Origin: a virus
DNA: 20,276 bases
Virus record (IMG/VR): IMGVR_UViG_3300031951_020250
Location: 1-20,276 of that record
Reading direction: 5' to 3' (one strand)
Shown here: positions 2,588 through 20,276 of the stretch, piece by piece
Numbering within the stretch: position 1 is the stretch's first letter
Layout of the letters: every line of letters starts with the position of its first letter
Notes under the pieces: model-generated
Seen by the model: the letters and a program-made list of their open reading frames with translations, nothing else
The model's database searches: none
Told to the model about the DNA's origin: nothing
Made by a program: the position numbers and the translations under genes

Positions 2588-3521
2588 GAGAACGACAAAT
2601 GGCAATCTCGCTCGCAGACATCAAGCAATCCCGCATGGGGCCGCCGCGCCTCGTCATCTACGGCCCCGAAGGCGTCGGCAAGACCACGCTGGCCGGGCAG
2701 ATGCGCAAGCCGGTGTTCATCGCCGCTGAGGACGGATTGCCGAACGGCGTCGCCTCTCTTCGCCCGACCAACTACGCCGAGGTGCTGCAGTGCATCGAGG
2801 CGCTGATCAACGAGGAGCACGACTACAAGAGCGCGATCCTTGATTCGGCCACGGTCATCGAGCCCTGGCTGCACGACCACGTCGTTGCGACGGTGCCTCA
2901 CGAGAAGGGGCACATGGTGCCGAACCTCATCGCCTACGGCTTCAACAAGGGATTCGACCACGCGGAGAAGGAGTGGCGGCACACGCTGCTCGCCGGCCTC
3001 ACCGCCCTGCGCGACATCCGGGGCATGAGCGTCTGCCTGATCGCGCACGCTCACACCGAGCGCGTGGAGAACCCCGAAACCGACCCCTACGACCGGTTCC
3101 AGATCAAGGTCCACAAGAAGGCCGCCGCCGCAATCTGCGAGTGGGCCGACGCGGTCCTGTTCGTCAACCCGAAGGTCGCCGCGGTGAAGGCCGGAGAAAC
3201 CCGCAGCGGCGAGGAGCGCAAGCGGGCAGCAGGCGACGGCAGCGCCGTGATCTACACGACCTTCCGCCCGGCTTGGCAGGCGAAGAACCGCTACTCGATG
3301 CCGCGCGAGGTGCCGCTCGTGCAGGGCGACCCGGCCGCGACGTGGGCGCCGATCCAGGCCGCCATCGACGCGAAGGTCACGTACAGCCCGACCGAGGTCC
3401 TGCGCGACGCCTTCATCAATGGAGCGCCACCGCTCCCGAACTGCGCTGCCACCAGCTGACACACACAACCTGTCCCGTAACTCCAAACACGAAACGCAAG
3501 AGAGAAAGAACGAGAACGACA
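2588..3521 (+). repeat. Duplicated 10-base translation leader GAGAACGACA
   Basis: GAGAACGACA lies at 2588-2597 and at 3512-3521, directly before the ATGs of the Sak4-like gene (one extra A) and the DUF669 gene (none). Both sit in short A-rich leaders that contrast with the GC-rich genes. The only two non-overlapping junctions in this part of the operon share this sequence. Confidence 0.45.
2599..3459 (+). CDS. Sak4-like phage recombination ATPase (RecA-like P-loop NTPase)
   Basis: 286 residues. Walker A is at 22-30 (GPEGVGKTT) and Walker B-like KSAILDS at 77-83 (Asp82). A beta strand ending in a sensor-like motif, VCLIAHAHTERV, follows, then KVHKKAAAAICEWADAVLFV. This order is typical of the AAA_24/Sak4 family of short phage RecA-like ATPases, which work with an SSB-like protein in strand annealing or recombination. 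Start ATG at 2599 with AGGAG just upstream; the longer frame from 2527 overlaps the preceding gene and has no ribosome site. The next gene is the DUF669 SSB-like protein, a common partner in phage recombination clusters. Family assignment is good; the exact biochemical role is inferred from relatives. Confidence 0.8.
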   Translation: MAISLADIKQSRMGPPRLVIYGPEGVGKTTLAGQMRKPVFIAAEDGLPNGVASLRPTNYAEVLQCIEALINEEHDYKSAILDSATVIEPWLHDHVVATVPHEKGHMVPNLIAYGFNKGFDHAEKEWRHTLLAGLTALRDIRGMSVCLIAHAHTERVENPETDPYDRFQIKVHKKAAAAICEWADAVLFVNPKVAAVKAGETRSGEERKRAAGDGSAVIYTTFRPAWQAKNRYSMPREVPLVQGDPAATWAPIQAAIDAKVTYSPTEVLRDAFINGAPPLPNCAATS

Positions 3522-4052
3522 ATGGGTAACCTCAACTTCGACGCCTCCGGCATCGCCCCGACCACTGCCTTCGACCCGCTGAAGGATGGCTGGTATGCCA
3601 TGCGGATCATCGAGTCCGAGATGGTGCCGAGCGAGAAGGCCGGCGACATGCTGAAGCTCCGCCTCGAGATCGACGAGTCGGCGCACCCGGAGATGGCGAA
3701 CCGCAGCGTGTTCCACCGGCTCTGCCTGAACCACCCGACCAGCGCGCAGGCGCGCGAGATCGCGCAGCGCACGCTGTCGGCGATCTGCCACTCGATCGGC
3801 AAGCTGCAGATCAGCGACACCGAGGAGCTGCTCGGCCAGTCGCTTCGCGTGAAGGTGAAGGCGCTGCCGGCGCGCACCGACGCCGCCACCGGCAAGACCT
3901 ACGAAGCCAGCAACGAAGTCGCTGGCTACAAGGCGCTGAGCGAGAAGGTGGAGGCGTCGGCCCCGGCCCCGGCCACCACGCCGACGGCGAAGCCCGCCGC
4001 CACCACGGCGCCCGCGGCGTCCCGTCCGGCCACGCCCAGCTGGAAGAAGTGA
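3522..4052 (+). CDS. DUF669-family phage SSB-like protein
   Basis: 176 residues. The N-terminus MGNLNFDASGIAP, then FDPLKDGWYAMRIIESEMVPS, LKLRLEIDE, NRSVFHRLCLNHP and AQRTLSAICHSIGKLQISDTEELLGQSLRVKV follows the DUF669 pattern seen in phage proteins next to recombination ATPases. These are thought to act as single-strand DNA-binding, OB-fold-like proteins. After about residue 145 the protein is a low-complexity Ala/Pro/Thr tail ending SRPATPSWKK, perhaps a flexible tail that contacts partners, as in SSBs, although it lacks an acidic tip. It follows the Sak4-like gene with a 62-base leader and is three bases from the SbcC-like gene. ATG at 3522 is preferred; the long upstream frame is a shadow. 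Confidence 0.8.
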   Translation: MGNLNFDASGIAPTTAFDPLKDGWYAMRIIESEMVPSEKAGDMLKLRLEIDESAHPEMANRSVFHRLCLNHPTSAQAREIAQRTLSAICHSIGKLQISDTEELLGQSLRVKVKALPARTDAATGKTYEASNEVAGYKALSEKVEASAPAPATTPTAKPAATTAPAASRPATPSWKK

Positions 4053-4055
4053 CCC

Positions 4056-5447
4056 ATGGCCACTCCCTCCTGGGTCCGACCTGTTGCGGGGGCGCCGGCT
4101 GCGAAGCCGGTGCCCGCCGCACCGAAGCCGCCGGCGACGCCGGCAACAACGCCACCGGAAGCGCCGCAGGTCCCCGCGGCGTCGGGTGGCCTGACCATCG
4201 TTCGTCTCACCGCCGAGAACGTGAAGCGCCTGAAGGCGGTCGAGATCGTGCCCGACGGCAATCTGGTGGTGCTGTCGGGCAAGAATGCGCAAGGCAAGAG
4301 CTCCATCCTCGACGCCATCACCTACGCGCTCGGCGGCAAGGGTGCGGTGTGCGCCGAGCCCATCCGGCGCGGGCAGGAATCGGCCGAGATCGTCTGTGAC
4401 CTCGGCGACCTGGTCGTGAAGCGCCGGTTCACTGCCGGCGGTGGGACCACGCTCGAGGTCACGTCGCGCGAAGGGCTCCGCTTCCCGTCGCCGCAATCGA
4501 TGCTCGACAAGCTGGTAGGCGAACTGACGTTCGACCCGCTCGCGTTCGCGCGGCAGAGCGCGAAGGACCAAGTCGAGACCCTGCAGCGACTGCTGGGTCT
4601 GGACTTCTCGGAAGCCGATCGCGAAGCCGAGCTCGCCTACAACGAGCGCACGCTGGTCAACCGCGAGCTGAAGGCCGCAGAGGCGCGGCTGAAGGCGATG
4701 CCGCCGATGCACGCAGGCACGCCGAAGGAGCCGGTCAACCCCGGCGACCTTGCTGGCGAGCTGCAGAACGCCAACTTCACCAACAGCGACAACGCTCGGC
4801 GTCGCCAGCTGGCCGACAGCTGCCGCGAGGACCTGCGACACCGACAAGCCGAAATCGTCAGGATGCGCGAGGCGCTTGCCCGAGCAGAGGCAGAGCTGAA
4901 GGAGCTGACGACGAAGCAGGCGGAGCAGGAAGCGCGCGTCGCCCTCCTCGTCGACGTCGACACCAAGCCGATCCTGCAGCGGATGCGCGATGCCGACGCG
5001 GTCAACCAGCGCGTGCGGGCCAACCAGCAGCGCGCCGAGGTCGAGAAGGAGGTCGCGGCGAAGAGCGCGAAGTCCGACGAGCTGACCGGCCGCCTCGACG
5101 AGATCCAGCAGTGGAAAGCCAACGAGGTGGCGAGCGCCAAGATGCCGGTGTCCGGCCTCGGGCTGTCGGACGACGGCGTCACCCTGAACGGGCTGCCGCT
5201 GAGCCAAGCCAGCGCGGCGGAGCAGCTGCGCGTGTCGGTCGCCATCGGCATCGCGATGAACCCGCGGCTGCGCGTGCTGCTGATCCGCGACGCCAGCCTG
5301 CTCGACAAGCAGTCGCTGGCGCTGGTCGCCGAGATGGCGAAGGCCGCCAACGCCCAGGTGTGGCTGGAGCGAGTCGAGGACGACTCGGCGACGGCCGTCG
5401 TCATCGAGGATGGGATGGTGCGGGAAGCGGCGGGGGCATCGTCATGA
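4056..5447 (+). CDS. SbcC/RecF-like AAA ATPase (SMC-type, short coiled coil)
   Basis: 463 residues. Residues 1-45 are an Ala/Pro-rich tail. The ABC/SMC head follows: strand LTIVRLTAENVKRLKAVEI, then Walker A GKNAQGKSS at 75-83. A coiled-coil middle runs over about 185-355 with clear heptads (EIVRMREALARAEAELKEL). The signature region LSQASAAEQLRVSVAIGIA is at 382-400 and the Walker B region RVLLIRDASLLD at 406-417. Relatives (SbcC, RecF, phage AAA proteins) act in DNA end processing and recombination. It has no C-x-x-C zinc hook and the coil is short. Walker B has Arg-Asp in place of the usual Asp-Glu. ATG at 4056 has GGAAGAAG upstream. Its stop overlaps the next ATG (ATGA). The neighbouring exonuclease suggests an SbcC/D-like pairing with a different nuclease. 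Confidence 0.78.
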   Translation: MATPSWVRPVAGAPAAKPVPAAPKPPATPATTPPEAPQVPAASGGLTIVRLTAENVKRLKAVEIVPDGNLVVLSGKNAQGKSSILDAITYALGGKGAVCAEPIRRGQESAEIVCDLGDLVVKRRFTAGGGTTLEVTSREGLRFPSPQSMLDKLVGELTFDPLAFARQSAKDQVETLQRLLGLDFSEADREAELAYNERTLVNRELKAAEARLKAMPPMHAGTPKEPVNPGDLAGELQNANFTNSDNARRRQLADSCREDLRHRQAEIVRMREALARAEAELKELTTKQAEQEARVALLVDVDTKPILQRMRDADAVNQRVRANQQRAEVEKEVAAKSAKSDELTGRLDEIQQWKANEVASAKMPVSGLGLSDDGVTLNGLPLSQASAAEQLRVSVAIGIAMNPRLRVLLIRDASLLDKQSLALVAEMAKAANAQVWLERVEDDSATAVVIEDGMVREAAGASS

Positions 5448-5644
5448 CCAATCCGACCACGACGGTCCCTGTGGTTCTCGAAGCGTGGGCATGCTTCCGC
5501 CCGGACGGAACGATCGCCCGTTACTACAAGGACCACGGGCCACTCTGCATCTTCGCCATGGAGCACGAGGCAATCTCGGCCAAGGGGGCGCAAGAGGTCG
5601 TTCGAGTGGTTGGCGTTCGTTCAGCGGCGGGGGCGCAGGCCTGA
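5444..5644 (+). CDS. Small unknown protein between ATPase and exonuclease
   Basis: 66 residues, not recognised. It begins MTNPTTTVPVVLEAWACF and continues RPDGTIARYYKDHGPLCIF, which looks like a small beta-rich fold, then a helix, EHEAISAKGAQEVVRVVGV. The start overlaps the previous stop as ATGA and its stop overlaps the next start as TGATG, so it is embedded in the operon and very likely translated. Being locked between the SbcC-like ATPase and the PD-(D/E)XK nuclease suggests an accessory role in the same process, but nothing in the sequence shows this. Confidence 0.55.
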   Translation: MTNPTTTVPVVLEAWACFRPDGTIARYYKDHGPLCIFAMEHEAISAKGAQEVVRVVGVRSAAGAQA

Positions 5645-6642
5645 TGGCGCCCCTCCCGCTGATCCCTGTCGCGACCTCGGCCGCCGCACTGCACGCCGCG
5701 TACGAAGCGCGTGCGGCCGCGGCGGCGCCGGGGTCGGAGCACGACTGGCGCCGCGACCATCTCGGCGCGTCGCTGATCGGCCACCCGTGCGATCGCTACC
5801 TCTGGCTTTCCTTCCGCTGGGCGCTGAACCCGCACCGCAAGGGGAAGCTGCTGCGCCTGTTCGAACGCGGGCACCGCGAGGAAGCGTGGATCGTCGAGGA
5901 CCTGCGCGCAGCAGGCTTCGCCGTGCAGGATCGCGATCCGGCCACCGGCGAGCAGTTCCGCGTGACCTGGCACGGCGGGCACTTCGGAGGCGGCCTCGAT
6001 GGGCTGGTGGCGGGGCTCCTGGAAGCGCCCAAGACGACGCACGTCCTCGAGGTGAAGACGCACAACCTCAAGTCATTCGAGAAGCTGCAGAAGGACGGCG
6101 TGAAGCGAAGCAAGCCGCAGCACTACGCCCAGATGCAGACCTACATGCGCGGCCGCGGCCTCGATCGGGCCTACTACGTCGCCGTCTGCAAGGACAACGA
6201 CGAGCTCTACACCGAGCGAGTGCACTTGGAGCCGGCCTTCGCCGACGAGCTGATCGCGCGCGCGCGCCAGATCATCGACGCACCCGAGCCGCCGGCCAGG
6301 AAGCCCGAACCCGACTTCCCGCCGTGCCTCTACACCACGGCGGAAGGCGTCCAGCACCCGTGCCAGTTCCGCGACCTGTGCTTCGGCGACGGCGTAATGC
6401 CGGAGCGGAACTGCAGGACCTGCATCGACGCGACGCCCGCAGAAGGCGGTTCGTGGCGCTGCGCGAAGTTCGAGTGCGAGATCCCGAAGGAGCACCAGCG
6501 CTTCGGCTGCCGCGAGCAGCTCACCATCCCCTCGATCGTCAACATGCAGGTCGCCTCGGTCGACGAGCACGGCCGCCGCATCACCTACCAGGCCGCCGAC
6601 GGCCGGTCCTTCGTGGAAGCGCCACGGGGAGGTGACGCTTGA
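5644..6642 (+). CDS. PD-(D/E)XK exonuclease, RecB/Cas4-like, with cysteine-rich C-terminus
   Basis: 332 residues. Early motif LGASLIGHPCDRYLWLSF (40-57) is the S-x-x-x-x-C-x-R-x-x-W pattern of Cas4/RecB-type nucleases. The catalytic set is Asp119 (GGGLDGLV) and E136-V-K138 (VLEVKTH), followed by Q163-x3-Y167 in HYAQMQTYM. The C-terminal third is rich in Cys: C228, C240, C246, then C257-x2-C260, C273, C278 and C289. This suggests one or two metal sites; Fe-S or Zn cannot be told apart here. Relatives digest DNA ends to give single strands for annealing. TGATG overlap with the previous gene and TTGA overlap with the helicase place it firmly in the operon. Confidence 0.85.
   Translation: MAPLPLIPVATSAAALHAAYEARAAAAAPGSEHDWRRDHLGASLIGHPCDRYLWLSFRWALNPHRKGKLLRLFERGHREEAWIVEDLRAAGFAVQDRDPATGEQFRVTWHGGHFGGGLDGLVAGLLEAPKTTHVLEVKTHNLKSFEKLQKDGVKRSKPQHYAQMQTYMRGRGLDRAYYVAVCKDNDELYTERVHLEPAFADELIARARQIIDAPEPPARKPEPDFPPCLYTTAEGVQHPCQFRDLCFGDGVMPERNCRTCIDATPAEGGSWRCAKFECEIPKEHQRFGCREQLTIPSIVNMQVASVDEHGRRITYQAADGRSFVEAPRGGDA
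6626..6635 (+). promoter_or_regulatory. Strong ribosome binding site for a TTG start
   Basis: GGGGAGGTGA lies six bases (counted from GGAGG) before the TTG at 6639. It decides the start of the helicase gene inside the end of the exonuclease gene. Confidence 0.6.
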
Positions 6643-7730
6643 TCGCCCTCTCTCAGCAGCAAGACGCCGCCTGCGCGGCCGTCCTCGACTGGTTCACGCT
6701 GCAGCACGAGCAGGTGTTCCGGCTGTTCGGGTACGCAGGCACCGGCAAGACAAGCATCGCGAAGATCCTGGCGCAGGCGATCCGCGAGAAGAGCGGGAAG
6801 GCCGTCGTGTTCGCCGCCTTCACCGGCAAGGCCGCCAGCGTCCTGCGGGACAAGGGCTGCCACGGCGCGTCGACGATCCACAGCCTGATCTACAAGCCCG
6901 TGCAGGTCGGTTCGAAGGTCACGTTCATGCTGGCCGGCGAGGACCTGCGATCGAAGCGGGTCGCGATGGTCATCATCGACGAGTGCTCGATGGTCGGCGA
7001 GGAGCTCGGCCGCGACCTCGAGTCCTTCCGCGTGCCGATTCTGGTGCTGGGCGACCCCGCACAGCTCCCGCCCGTCGGCGGTGGTGGCCACTTCACCAAC
7101 CACGAGCCGCACGTCCTGCTGACCGAGATCCACCGGCAGAAGGAGGGATGCGGCATCCTGGACATCGCGACCGCGGTGCGGATGGGGCAGCCGCTTCCGC
7201 TCGGCACCTACTCCGAAAGCGCGATCCGGCCACTGTCGGACCTGCACCGCATCGACCCGTTCGAGTTCGACCAGGTCATCGTCGGCAAGAACGCCACGCG
7301 CCGCAGCTGGAACGCCAAGATGCGCGCGCGCCTCGGCCGGACGTCGGCGCTGCCGGTCCCTGGCGATCGCCTCATCTGCCTGCGCAACAACCGCTCGGCC
7401 GGGATCATGAACGGCGAGCAGGTCACGGTGGTGGAGGCGAAGGAGGGGCCTGACGGGAACCTGCACGTCACCTTCGACCACGACGGCGACGTGAAGTCGC
7501 GCTGGGTGTCGACGCACTACCTGCTGGGCAACGAGGGCGACGCGCCGTGGAGCGGCGACGAGCTGCTGTTCTTCGACTACGGCTACGCGATCACCTGCCA
7601 CAAGAGCCAGGGCAGCCAGTTCCGCCGGGTCCTGGTCATCGACGAGTCGCGCGTCTTCCGCGAGAGCGCGGCGCGCTGGCTCTACACGGCACCGCCTCGT
7701 GCGCGCGAGCACGTCACGGTGGTGCGATGA
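6639..7730 (+). CDS. SF1B DNA helicase, Dda/RecD2-like
   Basis: 363 residues, a compact Dda-like size. Motif I is GYAGTGKT (31-38), Ia VFAAFTGKAA (57-66), II IIDECSM (112-118), III LGDPAQLPPV (137-146), IV near LLTEIHRQ (160-167), V YAITCHKSQGSQF (316-328) and VI LYTAPPRAREHVTVV (348-362). These helicases move 5' to 3' on single-stranded DNA and restart or load replication forks. Motif VI has two prolines where relatives usually have A-x-T-R-A. Start TTG at 6639 is set by the strong ribosome site at 6626-6635 and the TTGA overlap. The ATGA overlap with the next tiny gene continues the operon. Confidence 0.88.
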   Translation: MIALSQQQDAACAAVLDWFTLQHEQVFRLFGYAGTGKTSIAKILAQAIREKSGKAVVFAAFTGKAASVLRDKGCHGASTIHSLIYKPVQVGSKVTFMLAGEDLRSKRVAMVIIDECSMVGEELGRDLESFRVPILVLGDPAQLPPVGGGGHFTNHEPHVLLTEIHRQKEGCGILDIATAVRMGQPLPLGTYSESAIRPLSDLHRIDPFEFDQVIVGKNATRRSWNAKMRARLGRTSALPVPGDRLICLRNNRSAGIMNGEQVTVVEAKEGPDGNLHVTFDHDGDVKSRWVSTHYLLGNEGDAPWSGDELLFFDYGYAITCHKSQGSQFRRVLVIDESRVFRESAARWLYTAPPRAREHVTVVR

Positions 7731-7846
7731 AGAAGCACACGTGCACGTGGTGGTGCCGGCCGGTGGCCGCCCTGATCGGCTCCGCAGCAGGCTGCCTCGT
7801 CGCGGCCCTGATCGTGGCCATCGTCAAGGCGTGGAGGTGGCTGTGA
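7727..7846 (+). CDS. Tiny single-pass membrane protein
   Basis: 39 residues: MKKHTCTWWCRPVAA, then a hydrophobic stretch LIGSAAGCLVAALIVAIV (16-33), then KAWRWL. This is the layout of a one-pass inner-membrane peptide with basic ends. It overlaps the helicase stop (ATGA) and its own stop overlaps the next GTG (GTGA), which supports translation despite its size. No known family recognised. It could be a membrane anchor or phage accessory peptide; holin-like function is not suggested by its position among replication genes. Confidence 0.5.
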   Translation: MKKHTCTWWCRPVAALIGSAAGCLVAALIVAIVKAWRWL

Positions 7847-9594
7847 CCGCCGCCCCCTCCCTCTTCGACGACACGCCGCTGCAGGTGCCGCCGCTCGCCA
7901 TGCAGCTGCGCCCGTACCAGCAGGAAGCCGTCGACAGCATCTTCGCGTGGTTCGACAAGGAGACCGGAAACCCGCTGGTGGTGCTGCCCACCGGGGCCGG
8001 CAAGTCGCTGGTGCTCGCCGCCTTCATTCACGCGGTGCTGTCGAACTACCCGCGCGAACGCATCCTCGTGCTGACGCACGTGAAGGAGCTGATCGCGCAG
8101 AACCACGCGCAGCTTCTGCGCTGCTGGCCGGGCGCGCCCGCCGGCATCTGCTCGGCCGGGCTGCGCCGGCGCGAGCACGATGCACCGGTCCTGTTCGCCG
8201 GCATCCAGTCGACCTACCGGCACGCCGCGAAGATCGGCTGGGTCGACCTGGTCCTGGTCGACGAGGCCCACCTGATCCCGAAGGAGGGCTTCGGCATGTA
8301 CCGCGCCCTGCTGAAGGACCTGCTGTCGATGAACAGCCAGCTGAAGGTCATCGGCCTGACGGCGACGCCGTTCCGCACCGGCGAGGGGTCGCTCGATGCC
8401 GGCGCCGACCGCCTCTTCCACGGCATCGCCTACTCGGCGAGCCTCGTCGAACTGATCCGCGACGGCTACCTGTCGCCGGTCACCACGAAGGCGACGGCGT
8501 CCGAGGTCTCCACCGCCGGCGTGCACCGGCAGGGCGGCGAGTTCGTCGCCAAGGAACTTGAGGAGGCCGCGCTCTCCGGCGACCTGGTTCAGCGCGCGTG
8601 CAGCGAGATCATCGCGCGCGGCGCCGACCGAAAGGCTTGGCTCGTGTTCTGCTGCGGCGTGCGGCACGCGAAAGCGGTCGCCGCGCAGATTGAGGCGGCC
8701 GGCATCACCTGCGCCTGCATCTTCGGCGACACGGACCAGGGCGAGCGCGACGAGGCGATCAACGCGTTCAAGGCCGGACGCCTCCGCTGCATCGTCAACG
8801 TGAACGTGCTGACGACGGGCTTCGATGCGCCGCACGTCGATCTGATCGCCCTGCTGCGGCCGACCTGCTCGCCCGGGCTCTACGTGCAGATGGTGGGGCG
8901 CGGGCTTCGCAGAGCGCCGGGGAAGACCGACGCGCTGATCCTCGACTTCGGCAGCAACGCCGGGCGGCATGGGCCGATCGACGCGATCGCCATCACGCAG
9001 CCGAAGGACCGGAAGGAAGACGCCAAGGACCCCACTGAGCGCGTCCTCGCGAAGGCCTGCCCGAAGTGCCAGACGCTGGTCGCTGTCGCGATGCGCCAGT
9101 GCCCAGACTGCGGGCACATGTGGCCGGAGCCGACGCCAGACCACGCGGCGAAGCCGGACGAGCAGGCGACCCTGGTGCAGGGCACGCACCCGACGGGCGG
9201 CATCGAGCGGTGGGAGGTGCAGAAGACCTTCTACCGGCTTCACCGCAAGGAGCTGAGCAAGCCGCCGACGCTCTGCGTCGAGTACCGCTGCGGGTTCCAC
9301 CAGACGGCGCGCGAGTGGGTCTGCCTCGAGCACACCGGCTACGCCAGGCACAAGGCCGTCGCGTGGTGGAAGAGCCACGGCGGACAGATGCCGGCACCGG
9401 AATCGGTCGACGTGGCCCTGGCCCGAATTGAGTGCGGCGAGCTGCTCGACGTGGCCGTGGTGACGGTCGACGTGCGCGGCGAGTACCCGCAGGTCAAGGG
9501 GACTCGCATGGCGGCACGTGAGGCTGGCGAACAGGACTTCGCCGCGAAGCCGGAGACAGGAAACCCCAGCGACTACCAAGACATCCCGTTCTGA
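7843..9594 (+). CDS. SF2 DEAH-box helicase with zinc ribbon and SSB-like C-terminal tail
   Basis: 583 residues. LRPYQQEAV at 22-30, motif I LPTGAGKS (48-55), Ia VLTHVKELI, II VDEAH (139-143), III GLTATPFR (171-178), V VLTTGFDAPHVDLI (322-335) and VI QMVGRGLRR (349-357). This is the UvrB/RecG/RAD25-like helicase core common in phage replication modules. A zinc ribbon follows (C406, C409, C420, C423; ACPKCQ and QCPDCG). A second Cys/His-rich region near 478-497 (CVEYRCGFHQTAREWVCLEH) is a further possible metal site. The last residues are SDYQDIPF, close to the DDDIPF tip of bacterial SSB. GTG at 7843 has GGAGGTGG just upstream and a GTGA overlap with the tiny membrane gene. Likely unwinds or remodels DNA at the phage origin or forks. 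Confidence 0.88.
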   Translation: MTAAPSLFDDTPLQVPPLAMQLRPYQQEAVDSIFAWFDKETGNPLVVLPTGAGKSLVLAAFIHAVLSNYPRERILVLTHVKELIAQNHAQLLRCWPGAPAGICSAGLRRREHDAPVLFAGIQSTYRHAAKIGWVDLVLVDEAHLIPKEGFGMYRALLKDLLSMNSQLKVIGLTATPFRTGEGSLDAGADRLFHGIAYSASLVELIRDGYLSPVTTKATASEVSTAGVHRQGGEFVAKELEEAALSGDLVQRACSEIIARGADRKAWLVFCCGVRHAKAVAAQIEAAGITCACIFGDTDQGERDEAINAFKAGRLRCIVNVNVLTTGFDAPHVDLIALLRPTCSPGLYVQMVGRGLRRAPGKTDALILDFGSNAGRHGPIDAIAITQPKDRKEDAKDPTERVLAKACPKCQTLVAVAMRQCPDCGHMWPEPTPDHAAKPDEQATLVQGTHPTGGIERWEVQKTFYRLHRKELSKPPTLCVEYRCGFHQTAREWVCLEHTGYARHKAVAWWKSHGGQMPAPESVDVALARIECGELLDVAVVTVDVRGEYPQVKGTRMAAREAGEQDFAAKPETGNPSDYQDIPF

Positions 9595-9651
9595 CGCAGC
9601 AGACGGCGAGATCGACAGCGACAGCGACTGCAACCGCCCTGGGAGGGGCCG

Positions 9652-11979
9652 ATGGCACAACACGAAACGAGCAGCGCCCACCCGGGCGAGGGTCAGGCAT
9701 TCACTTCGCCGATCGATGCGGCACTGCGCTACGCGTCGATCGGCTGGCCGGTGTTCCCTTGCCGGCCGTTCACCAGCGTCGCCGACCGAGAGAACAAGAA
9801 GCCGCTGACGACGCACGGCTTCCAGGAGGCCACCACCGAAACCGCGCAGATCGTCGAGTGGTGGCGGAAATGGCCGCAGGCGCAGATCGCGGTCGCCACC
9901 GAGGCCGCCGGACTCTGCGTCATCGACCTCGACCTGAAGCCCGAGGAAGGCCTCGACGGGCCGGCAGCCTGGCTGCGCCTGAAGGACGAGCACGGCGCCG
10001 ACATGTGCGGGCTGATCGCCAGCACACCGCGCGGCGGCCGGCACTACGTCTACGTGATGCCGGAAGGCGGGGTGCGCTCGGGCAGCGACATCGTCAAGGG
10101 CAGCGGAATCGACGTGCGTGCGAACGGGGGCTACATCGTCGTGCCGTCGCCGGCGTCGCCGGACCGATCCTGGATCGTCGGCGACCCGTTCGAAGCGGGG
10201 AGCGACGGCTCCACCGACCTCGGCGGCATGCCGGAGTGGGTCCGCAACCTGGTCACCAAGGAGCGGCGGGCGTTCACCGCCGGCGGCGACGGGGGCTCTT
10301 CCTCCCGGGCCCTCCCGCTCGACGAGCGACAGGTCGCGCGAATTCGGTCCGCCCTGGACTGGATCGAGAACGACACGCGCGACAGCTGGCTGCACGTCGG
10401 CATGGCGCTGAAGAGCACCAGCGCCGGCCAGCAAGCCTACGACCTGTGGGTCGAGTGGTCCAAGCGGACAGCCACGGGCGCCGTCCACCCGAAGTTCGAC
10501 GCGAAGGACCAGCACTACCAGTGGCGCAGCATCCGCGAGTTCCGGCACAACGGCACCGAGATCACCCTCGGCACGCTGTTCCACCTGGCCAAGCTGGCCG
10601 GCTGGGCGCCAACGCTCGAGGAAGAGCTCGAGATCGAGGCCGAGCAGCTGGCGAGGCAGGCGGAGGCGATCGCCGCCGAGGTCGCGCCGGCAGCTGCTGC
10701 GGCGGTGCCCTCCCGCCCGTTCCCGCTCGAGTTGATGAACTGCCCTGGGCTGGTTGGCGAGATGGCCGACTGGATGGTGAAGAGCTCGACGCGGCCGCAG
10801 CCGGCGCTGTGCCTCGCTTCGACGCTGTGCGCGCTGGGGGCGCTGCTCGGCCGACGGGTCGCGTCGCCCACCGACCTGCGCACCAACCTCTACGCGCTGG
10901 GCATCGGCGAGACCGGCTGCGGCAAGGACCCGTCCGTGAAGCTGCCGCAGATGCTGTTCGCGCACGCGGGCCTGTCCAAGTTCGTCGGGCCGGGGGAGTG
11001 GAAGTCGGACTCCGGCCTGCGCGCCGCCCTGGTCGCCGAGCCCTCGCACGTCTGCCTGATCGACGAGTTCACGAAGGCGCTCGCGGTCATGTCCGGCCGG
11101 CAGGTGCCGCCGCACATCCTCGGCATCAAGTCGTACCTGCTCCGGCTCTTCCCGCTGGCCAACGGCGTGTTCCTGGCGCCGGCCTACGCCGACCGCAAGA
11201 TGAACGCGCCGGTCGAGATCCCGGAGCCGAACCTGTGCGTCTACGGCACGGGCGTCCCGAGCGAGCTGTTCTCGAGTTTGGATCGAGGCGCGGTGCAGGA
11301 CGGGTTCCTGAACCGCTTCCTGGTGTTCCTGGTCGACGAGCAGCAGCCAAAGCGCCAGAGGGTTAGCCGGGCCGTCCCGCCAGTTGATCTAGTCGACGGC
11401 GTGAAGGCTCTCGACCTCGCCACCAAGCCGAAGGGCAACCTGCAGGGGGTAGGCAGCGGCATGGCCAGCGCCACCGGCTGCCGGACCATCCCGCACGACG
11501 CGGAGGCGTCCGAGTTCCTGGCGGCGCTGGAGGCCGAGATCGACGCCAAGGTGGCGCACCTGCGGTCGAAGTCCGACCCGCTGGTCGACCTCTGGCTGCG
11601 CTTCATCGAGCACGTGGTCAAGGTCGCCCTGATCCGGTCCGTCGCCGACGACGCGACCAGACCGACCAACGTGCACGACCTGCGCTGGGCCTACGAGCTG
11701 GTGCTCTGGTGCACCGAGCGAACGGCGGCCATCGCCGAGTCCCACGTCGCCGACAGCCAGCAGGAGGCGGCGACGAAGCGAGTGCTGCGCCTGATCGCGG
11801 GAGCCGGGCCGGGCGGGATCACGAGCGACGCCCTGACGCGGAAGACGCAGTGGCTCCGCAGCGGGGACCGGAAGGACATCCTGGCGACCCTGGAGGCCGG
11901 CAATCAGGTGGCGCGCCGAACGGTCGCGACCTCGACCAAGCCGAAGCTGGTCTTCGTCGCCCTGGCGGTGGACCAGTGA
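9652..11979 (+). CDS. Primase-polymerase / PriCT_2 / DUF3987 helicase-like replication protein
   Basis: 775 residues in three parts. Residues 20-200 are an archaeo-eukaryotic-type bifunctional primase-polymerase: A-x-x-Y-A-S-I-G-W-P-V-F-P-C start, DxD at D92/D94 (CVIDLDLKP), TPRGGRHYVYV with His131, and GIDVRANGGYIVVP with Asp154. Residues 232-318 match PriCT_2 (LDWIENDTRDSWLHVGMAL, YDLWVEWSKR). Residues 355-640 match DUF3987, with a P-loop GETGCGKD (419-426), where Asp replaces the usual Ser/Thr, and a Walker B VCLIDEF. The C-terminus looks like a winged-helix domain (about 715-775). It synthesises primers and probably unwinds the origin. ATG at 9652 follows GGGAGGGG; 57 bases separate it from the helicase. 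The AT-rich iteron island starts one base after the stop codon. Confidence 0.88.
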   Translation: MAQHETSSAHPGEGQAFTSPIDAALRYASIGWPVFPCRPFTSVADRENKKPLTTHGFQEATTETAQIVEWWRKWPQAQIAVATEAAGLCVIDLDLKPEEGLDGPAAWLRLKDEHGADMCGLIASTPRGGRHYVYVMPEGGVRSGSDIVKGSGIDVRANGGYIVVPSPASPDRSWIVGDPFEAGSDGSTDLGGMPEWVRNLVTKERRAFTAGGDGGSSSRALPLDERQVARIRSALDWIENDTRDSWLHVGMALKSTSAGQQAYDLWVEWSKRTATGAVHPKFDAKDQHYQWRSIREFRHNGTEITLGTLFHLAKLAGWAPTLEEELEIEAEQLARQAEAIAAEVAPAAAAAVPSRPFPLELMNCPGLVGEMADWMVKSSTRPQPALCLASTLCALGALLGRRVASPTDLRTNLYALGIGETGCGKDPSVKLPQMLFAHAGLSKFVGPGEWKSDSGLRAALVAEPSHVCLIDEFTKALAVMSGRQVPPHILGIKSYLLRLFPLANGVFLAPAYADRKMNAPVEIPEPNLCVYGTGVPSELFSSLDRGAVQDGFLNRFLVFLVDEQQPKRQRVSRAVPPVDLVDGVKALDLATKPKGNLQGVGSGMASATGCRTIPHDAEASEFLAALEAEIDAKVAHLRSKSDPLVDLWLRFIEHVVKVALIRSVADDATRPTNVHDLRWAYELVLWCTERTAAIAESHVADSQQEAATKRVLRLIAGAGPGGITSDALTRKTQWLRSGDRKDILATLEAGNQVARRTVATSTKPKLVFVALAVDQ

Positions 11980-12068
11980 AATACGGTCGTGTCGGATTTC
12001 TTGAGGGATTCGGATTCCTCAAGCGCTCAGAACGGCGCAAAGCCCGCTGCCCGTAGGGGTTTGCGAAG

Positions 12069-12149
12069 ATCCCTCAAATACCTCAATCCCTCACCTAGGG
12101 GGGTATTCTGTAATGGGGGCATAGTGAGGTATTGAGGTATTTGAGGGAT
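12069..12149. repeat. Inner 26-bp inverted repeat, possible cruciform
   Basis: 12069-12094 and 12124-12149 are inverted copies, 25 of 26 bases matching, separated by a 29-base loop that contains two G-runs (CTAGGGGGG and TGGGGG). Each arm holds three tandem iteron-like sites. It could extrude as a hairpin in single-stranded DNA or RNA. Confidence 0.85.
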
Positions 12150-12180
12150 ATATATATCTCTCTTTTTTTCATATACTTAC
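12147..12180. other. AT-rich stretch, candidate DNA unwinding element
   Basis: Directly right of the inner repeat: alternating ATATATATATC, then CTCTCTTTTTTTC and ATATACTTAC. It is the most AT-rich stretch I noticed in the window and sits beside the iterons, as unwinding elements do. Confidence 0.5.
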
Positions 12181-12411
12181 GTCCTTCTAATCCCTCAACG
12201 CCTACTAGATTCCTCAAGAAATCCGACACCACCGTATGCGGCGAGTTACAGCCGCGAGACAACCGACGCCGGGCCCCAGGTCGCCCGCACGTCCTCGGAT
12301 CGCCATCGGGCGGCGGCACCTCGACCCAGGTCCCCTTCGTCGAACCTGGCGCCAACCAGCCGCCCTGCCTGCCGCGTCTGTGACACCGAACCCCCCAGTT
12401 TCGTGAGAAGC

Positions 12412-12445
12412 GGGCCGCGACCGGGGTGCAACCCAGCCGCGGCCC
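12412..12445. repeat. GC-rich hairpin
   Basis: Perfect 8-bp stem GGGCCGCG / CGCGGCCC (12412-12419 with 12438-12445) enclosing an inner 4-bp stem GGGT/ACCC (12424-12427, 12431-12434) with a 3-base loop. No T-run follows, so it is not a standard terminator. It lies 34 bases before the start codon of a possible leader peptide. Confidence 0.5.
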
Positions 12446-12478
12446 TCGGCAACCCCTGAATCGCACACAGGAGCCACC

Positions 12479-12529
12479 GTGCCCGTCCCATCGTCAGTCG
12501 TCCCCGTGTCCCGTGAGGTCGGACCATGA
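12479..12529 (+). CDS. Possible 16-residue leader peptide
   Basis: GTG at 12479 is preceded by AGGAG with a five-base gap, one of the better-placed ribosome sites in this part. It encodes MPVPSSVVPVSREVGP and stops at 12527-12529, overlapping the ATG of the next gene as ATGA, the same coupling used throughout the window. It may serve to deliver ribosomes to the 82-residue gene rather than make a useful peptide. No family can be assigned at this length. Confidence 0.3.
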   Translation: MPVPSSVVPVSREVGP

Positions 12530-12774
12530 TCCGCCTCGGGCATTCGTTCTTCCTCGATCCCGACTCGGACGGCTGGTGGCTGCTCGAGGTCGCCGGCAAG
12601 GACCGCGACCGTCAGACGCGGAGGTTCGGGCCGTTCACCAGCGTGCGCCACGTGCTGCAGCAGCGGCAGGTGAAGCTGCCGAAGGCAGTGAAGGCGGAGC
12701 TGCTGGAGCTCGAGGAGGCTGCAGGGGCGGGCGACGACTCAGTGGGCGAGCTGCCGGTTACCGAGGCCGGCTGA
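12526..12774 (+). CDS. Small unknown protein downstream of the origin-like region
   Basis: 82 residues, not recognised. The N-terminus MIRLGHSFFLDPDSDGWWLLEVAGK, then RRFGPFTSVRHVLQQRQVKLPKAVKAELLELEEAAG, suggests a beta hairpin followed by a helix, as in small phage proteins. The acidic tail is low complexity. GAGG lies upstream of the ATG and a possible leader peptide overlaps the start. It is the first gene after the candidate origin. No metal, membrane or enzyme motif is visible. Confidence 0.55.
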   Translation: MIRLGHSFFLDPDSDGWWLLEVAGKDRDRQTRRFGPFTSVRHVLQQRQVKLPKAVKAELLELEEAAGAGDDSVGELPVTEAG

Positions 12775-12850: not shown

Positions 12851-14203
12851 ATGGACAAGACGAACCCGAGTGAGGCCGCGGCGGCCTCGTCCCCCTACCT
12901 GTCAGAGGGCATGCTGCGAGCGCAGGCCAACCCGGACTGCGCGTTCCCGGATGCAGTGCAGGTGCTGTCGCGGGAGGTCCTGCGCCTGCGCGCGCAGTGC
13001 CCTCCGACGGCGGAGGTCGAGCGGATGCGCAACGCGTTGATGGCGTGCGCCAAGGCCGCGCACCCGAATGCCTTCGGGCACATTCGTGCCGGCGACGTCC
13101 ACATCGACTTCCTCTGCGAGGACGTGCAGAAGGAGGTGGGCCACCTGCGAGCCGACCGCGACGCCTGGAAGCGCACGGCCGACACGCTCGGCGGCGACCT
13201 GAACCGCATCCGTGCGCTCGTGCCGACGGCGAGCGACGAGCAGACGACGTTCGACGCGGTGCAGGCCTACCTGGAGACGATCGGCAAGGAACGTCGCGAC
13301 CTCGCGGTTGAGCGCGACAAGCTGCGCAATCTGATCGCGGCAGCCGATTGCGAGTTCCTCCGGGCCGGAACTGTTCCCCTCGACGGCAAGACGGTCCCCG
13401 TCGACGCCGCGATGCGCGAGCTGGCGAATGTGGTGGCGGAGTCGAAGCGCGACCGCGCCGAGAAGCAGCAGGCGCTGCTCGACGAGATCGCGCGGCTGGT
13501 GCCGGGCAAGGGGACGCTGACCGAGCGCGTCGCCAGGCTCGCGAACTTCTACCGGGACGCACACGACGCCGACATGGACCGCTACGGCTTCGCGCAGCTG
13601 CGGCTGATCGGCGAGGACATCGGCGCGTTCTACGACCCTGGGATCGGCACGCGGAAGAGCGTCGCGAAGCTGCTGCGCGCCTACTCGGACAAGGCCTACC
13701 AGGTCGAGCGGCTGCAGTTCGAGTGCGAGGCGAGGACGGGGCGGTCGACGTGCCCCGCCACCGGCGGCGTGGTGGGTGCGTCCGACTTCCTCAAGGCCAT
13801 GCGCACCACGGAGCCGAAGCCCGAGGTCGCGCGCAAGCCGGTCAGAGACCTCGTCGACGAGGCCCTCCGCATGGTGAGGGGGAAGATGCGCGAGGCGCCG
13901 AACTTCGCCTTCGACCCGGCGGAACCGCTCGGGTCGAAGGTCGCCCCCGCCACCGGCCAGCCGCGCACCGAGGTGCCGCTCGCGGCCGACGGCAGCGGGA
14001 CACTGTTCGCAGATCTGGTTAAGGCTGGGAAGGCCATCTACCTCGGCGAGGTGTTCTACAAGGCGCTCGAACACGCCGACCCAGACTTCTTCGGCAGCCC
14101 GCAGTTCCTCGACGGCAAGACGGACGAGGAGTCGCGGTATCGCCACCTCTACTGCGCCGTCAGGGAGCTGGCCAAGGTCGTCGAGCGCATCGGGGCGCGG
14201 TGA
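12851..14203 (+). CDS. Large coiled-coil protein of unknown function
   Basis: 450 residues from the ATG at 12851; an in-frame ATG at 12812 would add 13 residues. Neither has an ideal ribosome site: GAGGA lies only two bases from 12851. The sequence is mostly helical with long charged stretches, for example VLSREVLRLRAQ, VQKEVGHLRADRDAWKRTADTL, IGKERRDLAVERDKLRNLI, ESKRDRAEKQQALLDEIARL. A repeated idea is Arg/Glu-rich coil followed by a small loop with DGKTVPVDAAM. Several Cys are scattered without a clear metal pattern. The C-terminal part (LVDEALRMVRGKMREAPNF, DPDFFGSPQFLDGK) may be a separate domain. Its stop overlaps the sigma factor start (GTGA), hinting at a joint role such as regulation, but this is not shown. 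Confidence 0.6.
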   Translation: MDKTNPSEAAAASSPYLSEGMLRAQANPDCAFPDAVQVLSREVLRLRAQCPPTAEVERMRNALMACAKAAHPNAFGHIRAGDVHIDFLCEDVQKEVGHLRADRDAWKRTADTLGGDLNRIRALVPTASDEQTTFDAVQAYLETIGKERRDLAVERDKLRNLIAAADCEFLRAGTVPLDGKTVPVDAAMRELANVVAESKRDRAEKQQALLDEIARLVPGKGTLTERVARLANFYRDAHDADMDRYGFAQLRLIGEDIGAFYDPGIGTRKSVAKLLRAYSDKAYQVERLQFECEARTGRSTCPATGGVVGASDFLKAMRTTEPKPEVARKPVRDLVDEALRMVRGKMREAPNFAFDPAEPLGSKVAPATGQPRTEVPLAADGSGTLFADLVKAGKAIYLGEVFYKALEHADPDFFGSPQFLDGKTDEESRYRHLYCAVRELAKVVERIGAR

Positions 14204-14802
14204 CCGAGCGCCGGAACAGCCGCGAGCGCGCCGAGGCCCTGTTCGCCGAGAACCAGGGGCTCGTGCGCTGGATCGTGCGCCAGAAGCGCTTCGGCGATCT
14301 GTTCCGGCAGCACCGCATGGACGTCGACGACGCACTGCAGGTCGCCAGCATGGGCCTGTGGCACGCGTGCCAGCGGTTCGACGCGTCGCGCGGCATCAAG
14401 CTGTCGAGCTACGCCGTGCATTGCGCGCGCGGGTTCCTGTTGACCGCGCTGAAGCTGCAGCGGTTCGGCGTGGCCAACCCCGTCGACGGCGGCATCGACC
14501 TGACTAGGTTCCAGCTGGTGGGCGAGCGCCGGGACCTCGACCGGGCCGCCGGCGACGAGACGCTGGACGATGCCGTGCGCGCCGAGCAGGTGGCCGCCGT
14601 GCGCGCCGCGGTCGCGAGCCTGCCGGGTCGCCTCGCTCGCATCATGCAGATGCACATGGCCGACGCGACGCTGGACCAGATCGGCGCCGAGTTCGGGTTC
14701 ACGCGCGAGCGGGCGCGGCAGCTGGTCGTGAAGGCGAAGGATCGGCTGCGGCGGTTGCTCAGCCGGCACCACGAAGAGGGAGACGCGTTCGATGCTGCGT
14801 GA
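14200..14802 (+). CDS. Sigma-70 family RNA polymerase sigma factor
   Basis: 200 residues with sigma regions 2 and 4 only. Region 2 at about 13-88: LFAENQGLVRWIVRQKRF, DVDDALQVASMGLWHACQRFD, IKLSSYAVHCARGFLLTALK. Region 4 at about 131-186: VRAAVASLPGRLARIMQMHM, ATLDQIGAEFGFTRERARQLVVKAKDRL, with the recognition helix TRERARQL. Such factors direct host RNA polymerase to element-specific promoters. Start GTG at 14200 overlaps the previous stop. The small downstream gene starts inside its last codons. Being encoded after replication genes suggests control of later genes; this is inferred. No anti-sigma gene is obvious nearby, although the coupled small proteins could be candidates. Confidence 0.85.
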   Translation: MTERRNSRERAEALFAENQGLVRWIVRQKRFGDLFRQHRMDVDDALQVASMGLWHACQRFDASRGIKLSSYAVHCARGFLLTALKLQRFGVANPVDGGIDLTRFQLVGERRDLDRAAGDETLDDAVRAEQVAAVRAAVASLPGRLARIMQMHMADATLDQIGAEFGFTRERARQLVVKAKDRLRRLLSRHHEEGDAFDAA

Positions 14803-19077: not shown

Positions 19078-19110
19078 GAACGATAATGAAAAAAAGTGAA
19101 CGAGAATGAA
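19078..19110. repeat. Two 13-bp direct repeats between RadC and DUF6573, candidate operator
   Basis: GAACGATAATGAA at 19078-19090 and GAACGAGAATGAA at 19098-19110 differ by one base. Start-to-start distance is 20 bp, about two helical turns, so a protein would bind both on one DNA face. The site is AT-rich, lies between divergent genes and is the natural place for both promoters, although I cannot fix -10/-35 boxes. Confidence 0.6.
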
Positions 19111-19143
19111 GGAAGCGGGAGGGGCATCGGCTACTTTGGGGGC

Positions 19144-19533
19144 ATGGAAAGCAACGCACTGAACCTCCCGCTGATCGCCTCCTACACCCGCGCCGAAGCC
19201 ATCGAGGACGGCGCCCTGGTTGACGTCACCACGCAGGCCCGCGAGACCCTGAGCGGGTTCCGGGTGCCCGTCGCCGTGACCTCGGCCGTCTGGGGCGCGA
19301 TCGAGGCGATCCCGGCCAGCCTGAGCCACCAGGACATCGCCGGCCGCCTGCACGACGTGCTGTGGATGGCGTTCTCGGCGGCACGCGTGGCGCGTGATTC
19401 GTCGTCGGTGCTGTTCCGCGTGATCTTGCCGAGCCGCGGCACCCGCCAGCGCATCCGCACGATGCGGTGCGACATCGGCCCTGGCGATGCCGGCGAGGCG
19501 GTGGTGACGATCGGCTTCCCGGAGGACTTCTGA
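19144..19533 (+). CDS. DUF6573 family protein
   Basis: 129 residues. LIASYTRAEAIEDGALVDVTTQARETLSGFRVPVAVTSAVWGAIE is the marker stretch of DUF6573, a family seen on phages, plasmids and integrative elements next to RadC and DUF4942 genes. The C-terminal part (LWMAFSAARVARDSSSVLFRVIL) is mixed beta/alpha. Function of the family is not established to my knowledge. ATG at 19144 with GGGGG just upstream; a GTG at 19096 would run through one 13-bp repeat. Its stop overlaps the DUF4942 start (TGATG). Confidence 0.72.
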   Translation: MESNALNLPLIASYTRAEAIEDGALVDVTTQARETLSGFRVPVAVTSAVWGAIEAIPASLSHQDIAGRLHDVLWMAFSAARVARDSSSVLFRVILPSRGTRQRIRTMRCDIGPGDAGEAVVTIGFPEDF

Positions 19534-20276
19534 TGACGAGCGCCGCGCTCGTTCCATCCTGCAGCGCCGAGGCGATCCAGGCCGAGCGCGACGCCGTCGT
19601 GCGCTGGGCCGAGCAGGTCGGCGCGCTGATCCGCTCCGCACCCGCGAAGGCGCCGAAGCTGCACATCGACGAGCATCGGTGGGGCCGCGAGGAGTTCTCG
19701 GTGGCCCGCGTGACGCGGGATGCCGACGCCCACGCGTGGGATCGGCTGCTGCGCGAGTCCGGGCTCTGGTCGTTCATGGATGCCCAGGCGCGTGAGGAGT
19801 GGCGCGCGCAGATCAACGGGCCGAACCACCACGGCGCGAAGCTGCCCGACCTGCCGGCGTTCACCGTGGCCGCGGCTGAGGACGTGGCGCGAGGCATTCA
19901 CGAGAAGCGCGGCGCCATGGTGGCTCGCGGCGTCGAGGAAGTGCACCGCCGCCTGTCTGGCGACTACAAGTCGAACGAGCCGGCGCGCTTCGGTCCTCGC
20001 ATGGTGCTGCGGCACCTCGGCCACTGCTGGGGATCCGGCAAGTGGCTCAGCATCTCGCACGAGACCTGCGACCGGCTCGACGACCTCGCGCGCCTCCTGC
20101 GCCTCGCGCGAGGCATCCCGGAAGACGACCACCGGCGAGGCTGCTGGCACCAGCTCAGCGACGCATCCAACTCGGCGCCGTGCGTGGTCGAGCTCGAGTT
20201 CTTCAGGGTCAAGGTGTTCAAGAACGGTAACGGCCACCTGTGGTTCCGCTTCCCCGAGGACATCGCGCGCCTGAAC
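19533..20276 (+). CDS. DUF4942 family protein, 3' end cut by the window
   Basis: 248 codons with no stop before the window ends. Marker stretches are WDRLLRESGLWSFMDAQAREEWRAQI, GIHEKRGAMVARGVEEVHRRLSGDYKSN, and the C-terminal FFRVKVFKNGNGHLWFRF with PEDIARLN, all typical of DUF4942. These proteins occur on phages and mobile elements, often near RadC or DNA methylase genes; some relatives are fused to methyltransferases. Whether such a domain follows here cannot be seen. ATG at 19533 has GGAGG seven bases upstream and overlaps the DUF6573 stop. Confidence 0.8.
   Translation, partial: MTSAALVPSCSAEAIQAERDAVVRWAEQVGALIRSAPAKAPKLHIDEHRWGREEFSVARVTRDADAHAWDRLLRESGLWSFMDAQAREEWRAQINGPNHHGAKLPDLPAFTVAAAEDVARGIHEKRGAMVARGVEEVHRRLSGDYKSNEPARFGPRMVLRHLGHCWGSGKWLSISHETCDRLDDLARLLRLARGIPEDDHRRGCWHQLSDASNSAPCVVELEFFRVKVFKNGNGHLWFRFPEDIARLN

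Follow-up and report, generated by a model that had tools for sequence, protein, structure and literature searches.

Which function is served by a short, densely repeated non-coding element that directly follows a primase gene in a viral genome? The element in question spans 257 bp (11981–12237) of a 20,276-bp viral sequence, the whole of which is referred to here as the window. An original prediction, made from the sequence, described an iteron-like array at this position and took it for a phage replication origin whose initiator could be the primase or one of the helicases. The analyses below establish where the sites of the array lie, that their geometry is conserved, that they are linked exclusively to the DUF3987-primase family, and that the winged helix is the only part of the primase with which they co-vary. 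Judged from sequence and comparison, the reading of the element that stands well ahead of all others is a replication origin, and theta is the best reading of its type.

The Primase-Helicase and Its Genomic Neighborhood

The genes at 2973–11979, all on the plus strand, together make up a phage replication module, as assigned from Pfam and PHROGs matches. In order, they encode a DUF669 single-strand DNA-binding protein (2973–4052), an AAA/SbcC-like ATPase as module partner (4056–5447), a Cas4-domain exonuclease with a presumed place in replication and recombination (5410–6642; phrog_1990, 1.1e-90), a Dda/RecD-like helicase with AAA_30 and UvrD_C_2 domains (6639–7730), a SF2 helicase of the ResIII/Helicase_C type in the same replication operon (7699–9594), and finally a 775-aa primase-helicase (9652–11979), which is the proposed initiator. 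The SF2 helicase recurs as a neighbor of the primase in the related loci L021, L036, L027/L097, and L102. On the 3′ side of the array are genes without an assignment, followed by a phage-encoded sigma-70-like factor with regions 2 and 4 (14200–14802). The right end of the window (19096–20276) is occupied by DUF6573 and DUF4942 genes, and the product of the latter has a further match, to a PHROG whose annotation is DNA methyltransferase.

The primase-helicase combines four parts in the order Prim-Pol, PriCT_2, DUF3987, and winged helix. The first three are Pfam matches (PF09250, AEP Prim-Pol, 5.2e-31; PF08707, PriCT_2; PF13148, DUF3987), and the protein as a whole matches phrog_3022, a DNA primase, at 1.6e-91. 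The array thus lies directly behind a prim-pol/DUF3987 gene, as had been predicted. A TOPRIM (DnaG-like) primase domain is absent from the protein according to Pfam, with the AEP Prim-Pol in its place. The DUF3987 segment carries a Walker A motif (GIGETGCGKD) and a Walker B motif (LIDEF) that are conserved in the alignment; in the P-loop, the residue that follows GK is D or N instead of S or T.

Structure prediction adds two points. The model of the DUF3987 segment (pLDDT 86, pTM 0.84) has its best PDB matches among MCM2-7 subunits, with E-values down to 1.6e-6 and TM scores of only 0.3–0.5, and it also matches the C-terminal region of the phage NrS-1 primase. This likeness to MCM is at the level of the fold only; it would fit an origin-melting AAA+ helicase, but is no reason to call DUF3987 an MCM. 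The last ~70 residues of the protein are predicted by AlphaFold2, at a pLDDT of 91, to form a winged helix in the order helix-helix-helix-strand-strand, the structural neighbors of which in the PDB are winged helices as well, at weak E-values (about 5e-3). This domain (residues 703–770; 11758–11961, plus strand) is the proposed iteron-binding part of the protein, on the basis of the model, the PDB matches, and the co-variation described below.

Organization of the Array

The 9-bp motif ATNCCTCAA has exactly eight matches in the window, all of them at 12001–12217, against an average of 0.07 matches, and never more than 1, in dinucleotide shuffles of the window. The first site lies 21 bp 3′ of the primase stop. 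Two near copies, located by repeat search, complete the set: ATCCCTCAC at 12086–12094 on the plus strand (repeat family D1) and GTGAGGTAT, also given as ATACCTCAC, at 12124–12132 on the minus strand. Each shares one base with the neighboring site. Both the predicted number of sites (eight exact and two near copies in 217 bases) and their density relative to shuffled sequence were therefore borne out.

The sites are arranged as three tandem copies, a loop, and three inverted copies, with outer pairs on either side. The left half of the core consists of ATCCCTCAA (12069–12077), ATACCTCAA (12078–12086), and the near copy ATCCCTCAC, all on the plus strand; across a 29-nt spacer (12095–12123), the right half consists of the second near copy, ATACCTCAA (12132–12140), and ATCCCTCAA (12141–12149), all on the minus strand. 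The two near copies complete a pair of 26-nt inverted arms (12069–12094 and 12124–12149) that are 96% complementary around the 29-nt loop, in agreement with the arrangement that had been proposed. The outer sites are ATCCCTCAA at 12001–12009 (minus strand) and ATTCCTCAA at 12014–12022 (plus strand) on the left, and ATCCCTCAA at 12190–12198 and ATTCCTCAA at 12209–12217 (both plus strand) on the right. A second, outer inverted repeat, missed in the original prediction, joins 11981–12009 to 12209–12237 (29 nt, 93% complementary, both arms listed on the plus strand). It frames the element as a whole, beginning 2 bp past the primase stop codon.

The GC content, measured over 500 bp, dips from ~0.69 to 0.59–0.60 around the array. 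The idea of an AT-rich island in GC-rich DNA thus stands as a dip; strong AT richness is local and confined to 12146–12190 (73% AT), a candidate DNA-unwinding element. An AT-rich stretch that adjoins the core was also noticed by eye in relatives. GC skew, a change in which had been suggested as a check, shows no switch within the window and is uninformative in two complete relatives, Synechococcus phage Yong-M3-232 and plasmid pC; it neither supports nor refutes an origin.

Within the AT-rich tract is a hairpin that resembles an intrinsic terminator, followed by a run of seven Ts (12143–12169, plus strand), which may also end the primase transcript. This hairpin, together with the placement of the array between the operon and the next genes, could suggest that the element is an operator or other regulatory region instead of an origin, i.e., a site for repressor binding or a terminator or attenuator of the primase operon. 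Such a role by itself is very unlikely, since no sigma-70-like promoter was found in 11900–12600, approximately ten sites over 217 bp are unneeded for a terminator, and the array is linked to the primase gene, with site sequences that track the primase's own DNA-binding domain (see below). Autoregulation by the initiator could, however, coexist with origin function.

Recurrence of the Array among Viruses

Recurrence was examined in two ways. In the motif-first approach, 2.9 million viral contigs were scanned for the convergent core with two geometric patterns and no protein reference. The core was found in 46 contigs, all six frames of which were then searched with a profile of DUF3987 plus the winged helix. 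In 45 of the 46, the core lies 20–111 bp downstream of the stop of a DUF3987-primase gene; the remaining contig starts too close to the array, which opens at base 16, for the upstream gene to be included. Of the two patterns, the second had been designed after arrays of the protein-first set, and many of the matching contigs are close relatives; counted fairly, there are 18 non-redundant arrays, the window included. Nowhere in the viral contigs was the core found beside another gene, and its distance from the primase is always short.

Nor did the pattern occur in any of 384 other genomes from the class to which a host metagenome-assembled genome (MAG) belongs; this class-wide scan, which serves as a specificity control, matched the seed genome only. 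Two further pattern matches, in a Methanosarcina MAG (L101, where it follows a radical-SAM gene) and in a Burkholderiaceae MAG (L103), were set aside as unrelated palindromes. These distributions bear on whether the element might be a partition (parS-like) site, a packaging site, or a mobile repeat of the MITE kind, as its terminal inverted repeats, framing a short non-coding element, might suggest. It is present as a single copy in the window, its core is confined to the vicinity of the primase in the viral contigs scanned and missing from the 384 genomes, and the window genes scanned gave no match to parA or parB, all of which makes such an identity extremely unlikely.

In the protein-first approach, viral contigs were searched with an alignment of five primases, which yielded 80 relatives; the window primase as a single query had found none in the protein search. 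In annotated phages, the C-terminal 77 aa of the primase found no match, and blastn of the element gave chance matches only. Selection by protein alone gave 26 non-redundant relatives, of which 13 have at least three ATNNNTCAA sites within 300 bp 3′ of the primase stop, compared with none of 2,871 other 300-bp windows from the same contigs having even two. Eight further relatives of the 26 carry a different but significantly repeated iteron 3′ of the primase. Motif clusters behind DUF3987 genes, which had been proposed as a check, are thus strongly evident by both approaches, and the array is a conserved module.

Its geometry recurs along with its sites. Relative to the stop, an outer site is found at about +7, tandem sites at about +80, +89, and +97, inverted sites at about +160 to +180, and outer sites again at about +230 to +255. 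The general site across the family is ATNNNTCAA, with middle letters that vary by clade. The motif as first described is therefore real, but it is one clade's version of a wider family, and close relatives have replaced it with other iterons. For instance, the closest relative of all (L104, 59% identity), one of the eight just mentioned, has the iteron ACACTTCAA. In one large clade, the left arm is spaced at 9 and 8 bp and the right arm at 8 and 8 bp, with differing middle letters and constant TCAA positions, and outer sites in relatives frequently repeat directly instead of forming arms. Purines and pyrimidines often alternate along a tract of the spacer between the half-arrays, for example as ACGCGTGCACGCGCG; this is seen in L136 (from about +115 to about +150 past the primase stop) and, in similar form, in L160, L164, and L174.

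Iteron arrays of other sequence follow further related primases. Spartinivicinus ruber plasmid pC, an 82-kb circular phage-plasmid, has an array directly after its Prim-Pol primase, composed of ATGTGAAAA/ATGTGATAA iterons that flank an AT-rich center (L191, 3396–3690). The primase module is the only replication-initiation candidate among the listed genes of pC, the PLSDB gene table being incomplete and another initiator possible. Synechococcus phages carry an array of GTCGGTTAGC iterons downstream of a related primase; in phage Yong-M3-232 (L184, 3784–4040) this dense array lies ~400 bp 3′ of the gene, past one small gene, and the same is seen in phage Ssp-JY40. In Streptococcus (S. thermophilus) phage Sfi21, the origin is 3′ of the primase. 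Records from Roseobacter, Vibrio, Pseudoalteromonas, Sinorhizobium, and Bealeia with a detectable C-terminal match have no such array just 3′ of the gene. In Pseudoalteromonas phages H40/1 (L186, ~560–640) and C7 (L192, ~450–630), CTTTTTAC repeats are located upstream, not downstream, of the primase, and origin placement may therefore differ in that branch.

Bordetella phage BPP-1 (L240, 25500–30500) possesses convergent tandem 9-bp repeats of the CGAGGCAAA type ~465–570 bp downstream of the primase stop (bbp29), in which two tandem copies face two inverted ones across ~70 bp. These repeats make a candidate for an iteron origin, in a phage that has been well studied. They also bear on the proposal that origins of this kind are cruciforms or stem-loops recognized by shape, with the repeated letters a by-product of palindromy. 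An essential 100-bp stem-loop has been reported downstream of pRN1 orf904 and a similar origin stem-loop in phage BIP-1, which is near-identical to BPP-1 (PMC4234260). The window element indeed folds far better than its shuffles (−59.6 versus −27.7 kcal/mol, z −8.9), as would any palindromic array; weak Rfam matches to a plant miRNA and to SymR, below the gathering scores, reflect the same hairpin and were rejected. In many relatives, however, the unequal arm spacing and different middle letters would give a bulged, mismatched hairpin while the TCAA positions are kept, and the outer sites are frequently direct repeats, which disfavors a perfect hairpin and favors individual protein sites. With the convergent tandem repeats of BPP-1 as well, recognition by shape is improbable, and the BIP-1 “stem-loop” may itself consist of iterons, given its near-identity to BPP-1.

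The Domain Proposed to Read the Iterons

Across 31 non-redundant loci, five of which (the window included) were picked by motif, iteron similarity correlates with winged-helix identity once the helicase core is corrected for (partial r 0.49; p 0.0005 by a permutation that ignores phylogeny). The reverse comparison, helicase core given winged helix, gives a partial r of −0.10 (p 0.84; 31 loci). When the comparison is slid along the primase, residues 660–775 alone correlate (partial r 0.35 and 0.48), with values of −0.17 to 0.09 for the other segments. The winged-helix codons adjoin the array, and some of the co-variation could stem from inheritance of the two together, which would inflate the signal, although the signal drops steeply over the preceding protein segment. 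Since the iterons co-vary only with its C-terminal winged helix, the primase is the favored initiator, and the choice originally left between it and the other helicases narrows accordingly.

Within the window's own clade, the relation between iteron and winged helix is loose. The winged helix of L104 is 50% identical to that of the window, yet its iterons are ACACTTCAA, whereas L021 has the window's iterons at 31% winged-helix identity. Recognition is therefore not readable from the few residues compared. A simple rule that relates recognition-helix residues to iteron position 5 failed, as L168 shares much of the L021 helix but has TTCAA sites. In L109 and L110, KATRW replaces R(K/R)TQW in the winged helix, and TGCACAAAAG iterons replace TCAA sites 3′ of the primase; together with their TCAA relatives, these loci form a natural test pair for recognition.

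A Proposed Mechanism of Initiation

The linkage and the co-variation support the predicted phage replication origin, with a replication start that would lie within the element. The explanation favored here, and considered likely in full, is that 11981–12237 is an origin read by the primase-helicase encoded directly upstream. As judged from co-variation and predicted fold, the C-terminal winged helix would bind the 9-bp iterons. The symmetry of the core suggests that the three facing iterons on each side would then nucleate two AAA+ DUF3987 oligomers head to head, while the outer sites might contribute to loading or to copy control. The adjoining tract of 73% AT would melt, the N-terminal Prim-Pol would lay primers on the opened strands, and forks would depart both ways with the operon helicases and the DUF669 single-strand binding protein. 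Confidence in an origin as such is higher than in this scheme as a whole, and that in the double-hexamer step is lower.

A broader proposal, plausible but with the balance tilted somewhat against it, is that DUF3987 prim-pol proteins are self-sufficient MCM-like phage initiators. As double hexamers assembled head to head on convergent 9-bp iterons, they would need no host DnaA, DnaB, or DnaG to open and prime the origin that is theirs, and replicon identity would be switched as the winged helix and iteron change together. If true, this would define an origin family with a natural protein-DNA recognition code readable from sequence. Phage primases with DUF3987 form a widespread class, yet the domain has so far received no name. 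A candidate origin with defined sites, 18 non-redundant versions, and a sequence that switches with one protein domain makes the prediction of origin recognition directly testable. Matched winged-helix/iteron pairs offer a natural set for deriving recognition rules, and the genomes of uncultured phages could have their origins flagged by a simple DNA pattern.

Comparison with Known Systems

No description of these iterons was found in the part of the literature covered, which is not to claim that none exists. Several known systems nonetheless share features with the window. Classical DnaA-dependent iteron plasmids (Rep_3, RepA, pi) differ from it, as the window has no DnaA box TTATNCACA at up to one mismatch and no plasmid Rep initiator family in Pfam and PHROGs scans of the window genes tested. 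SGI1 rep/oriV (PMC7433901) also has an iteron origin directly 3′ of the initiator gene, but with 17-bp iterons, a DnaA box, and a different initiator. The phage P4 alpha protein and its ori/crr (cited in PMC4234260) likewise represent a primase-helicase, in P4 with a winged helix that binds origin repeats; the P4 primase is of the TOPRIM type, however, and its repeats are unrelated. MCM helicases are AAA+ hexamers of the presensor-1 hairpin superclade that load as double hexamers at origins, a family to which the modelled DUF3987 fold may be likened at TM scores of 0.3–0.5 only.

The Rep/ori of the Staphylococcus aureus pathogenicity islands (SaPIs; Ubeda et al. 2007, as described in PMC7581432) and the SCCmec Cch2 origin (PMC7581432) resemble what is proposed for the window in pairing a self-recognizing initiator helicase with a short-iteron origin directly 3′ of its gene. 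There, the helicase binds the iterons through its C-terminal domain and two hexamers have been proposed; here, the co-variation and the symmetry of the core would fit such an arrangement. Unlike in SaPIs, the helicase of the window is DUF3987 fused to an AEP Prim-Pol (Pfam assigns DUF3987 alone, with no homology to the DUF927 or Primase_Cterm types of SaPI Rep), the ATNNNTCAA iterons form a convergent 3+3 core accompanied by outer sites, and the carriers are phages.

pRN1 ORF904 and BPP-1/BIP-1 (PMC4234260) share with the window a Prim-Pol, a helicase, and a winged helix in one protein, as well as a palindromic origin (in the window, a candidate one) 3′ of the gene, which in pRN1 is a large stem-loop comparable to the strong fold seen here. 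The pRN1 stem-loop is without iterons and its helicase is of the SF3 type, in contrast to the clear array of eight exact iterons in the window.

Finally, the order AEP-PriCT-DUF3987-WH is that of the PrimQH family in the PrimPol-PV1 supergroup, as described by Kazlauskas et al. (2018; PMC5862659); the likeness is one of domain content, and All3500 members of the supergroup can also carry DUF3987. There, DUF3987 is a predicted helicase and the WH domain is predicted to recognize the origin. The passages covered name no origin DNA for DUF3987 members, for which the window array now supplies a candidate.
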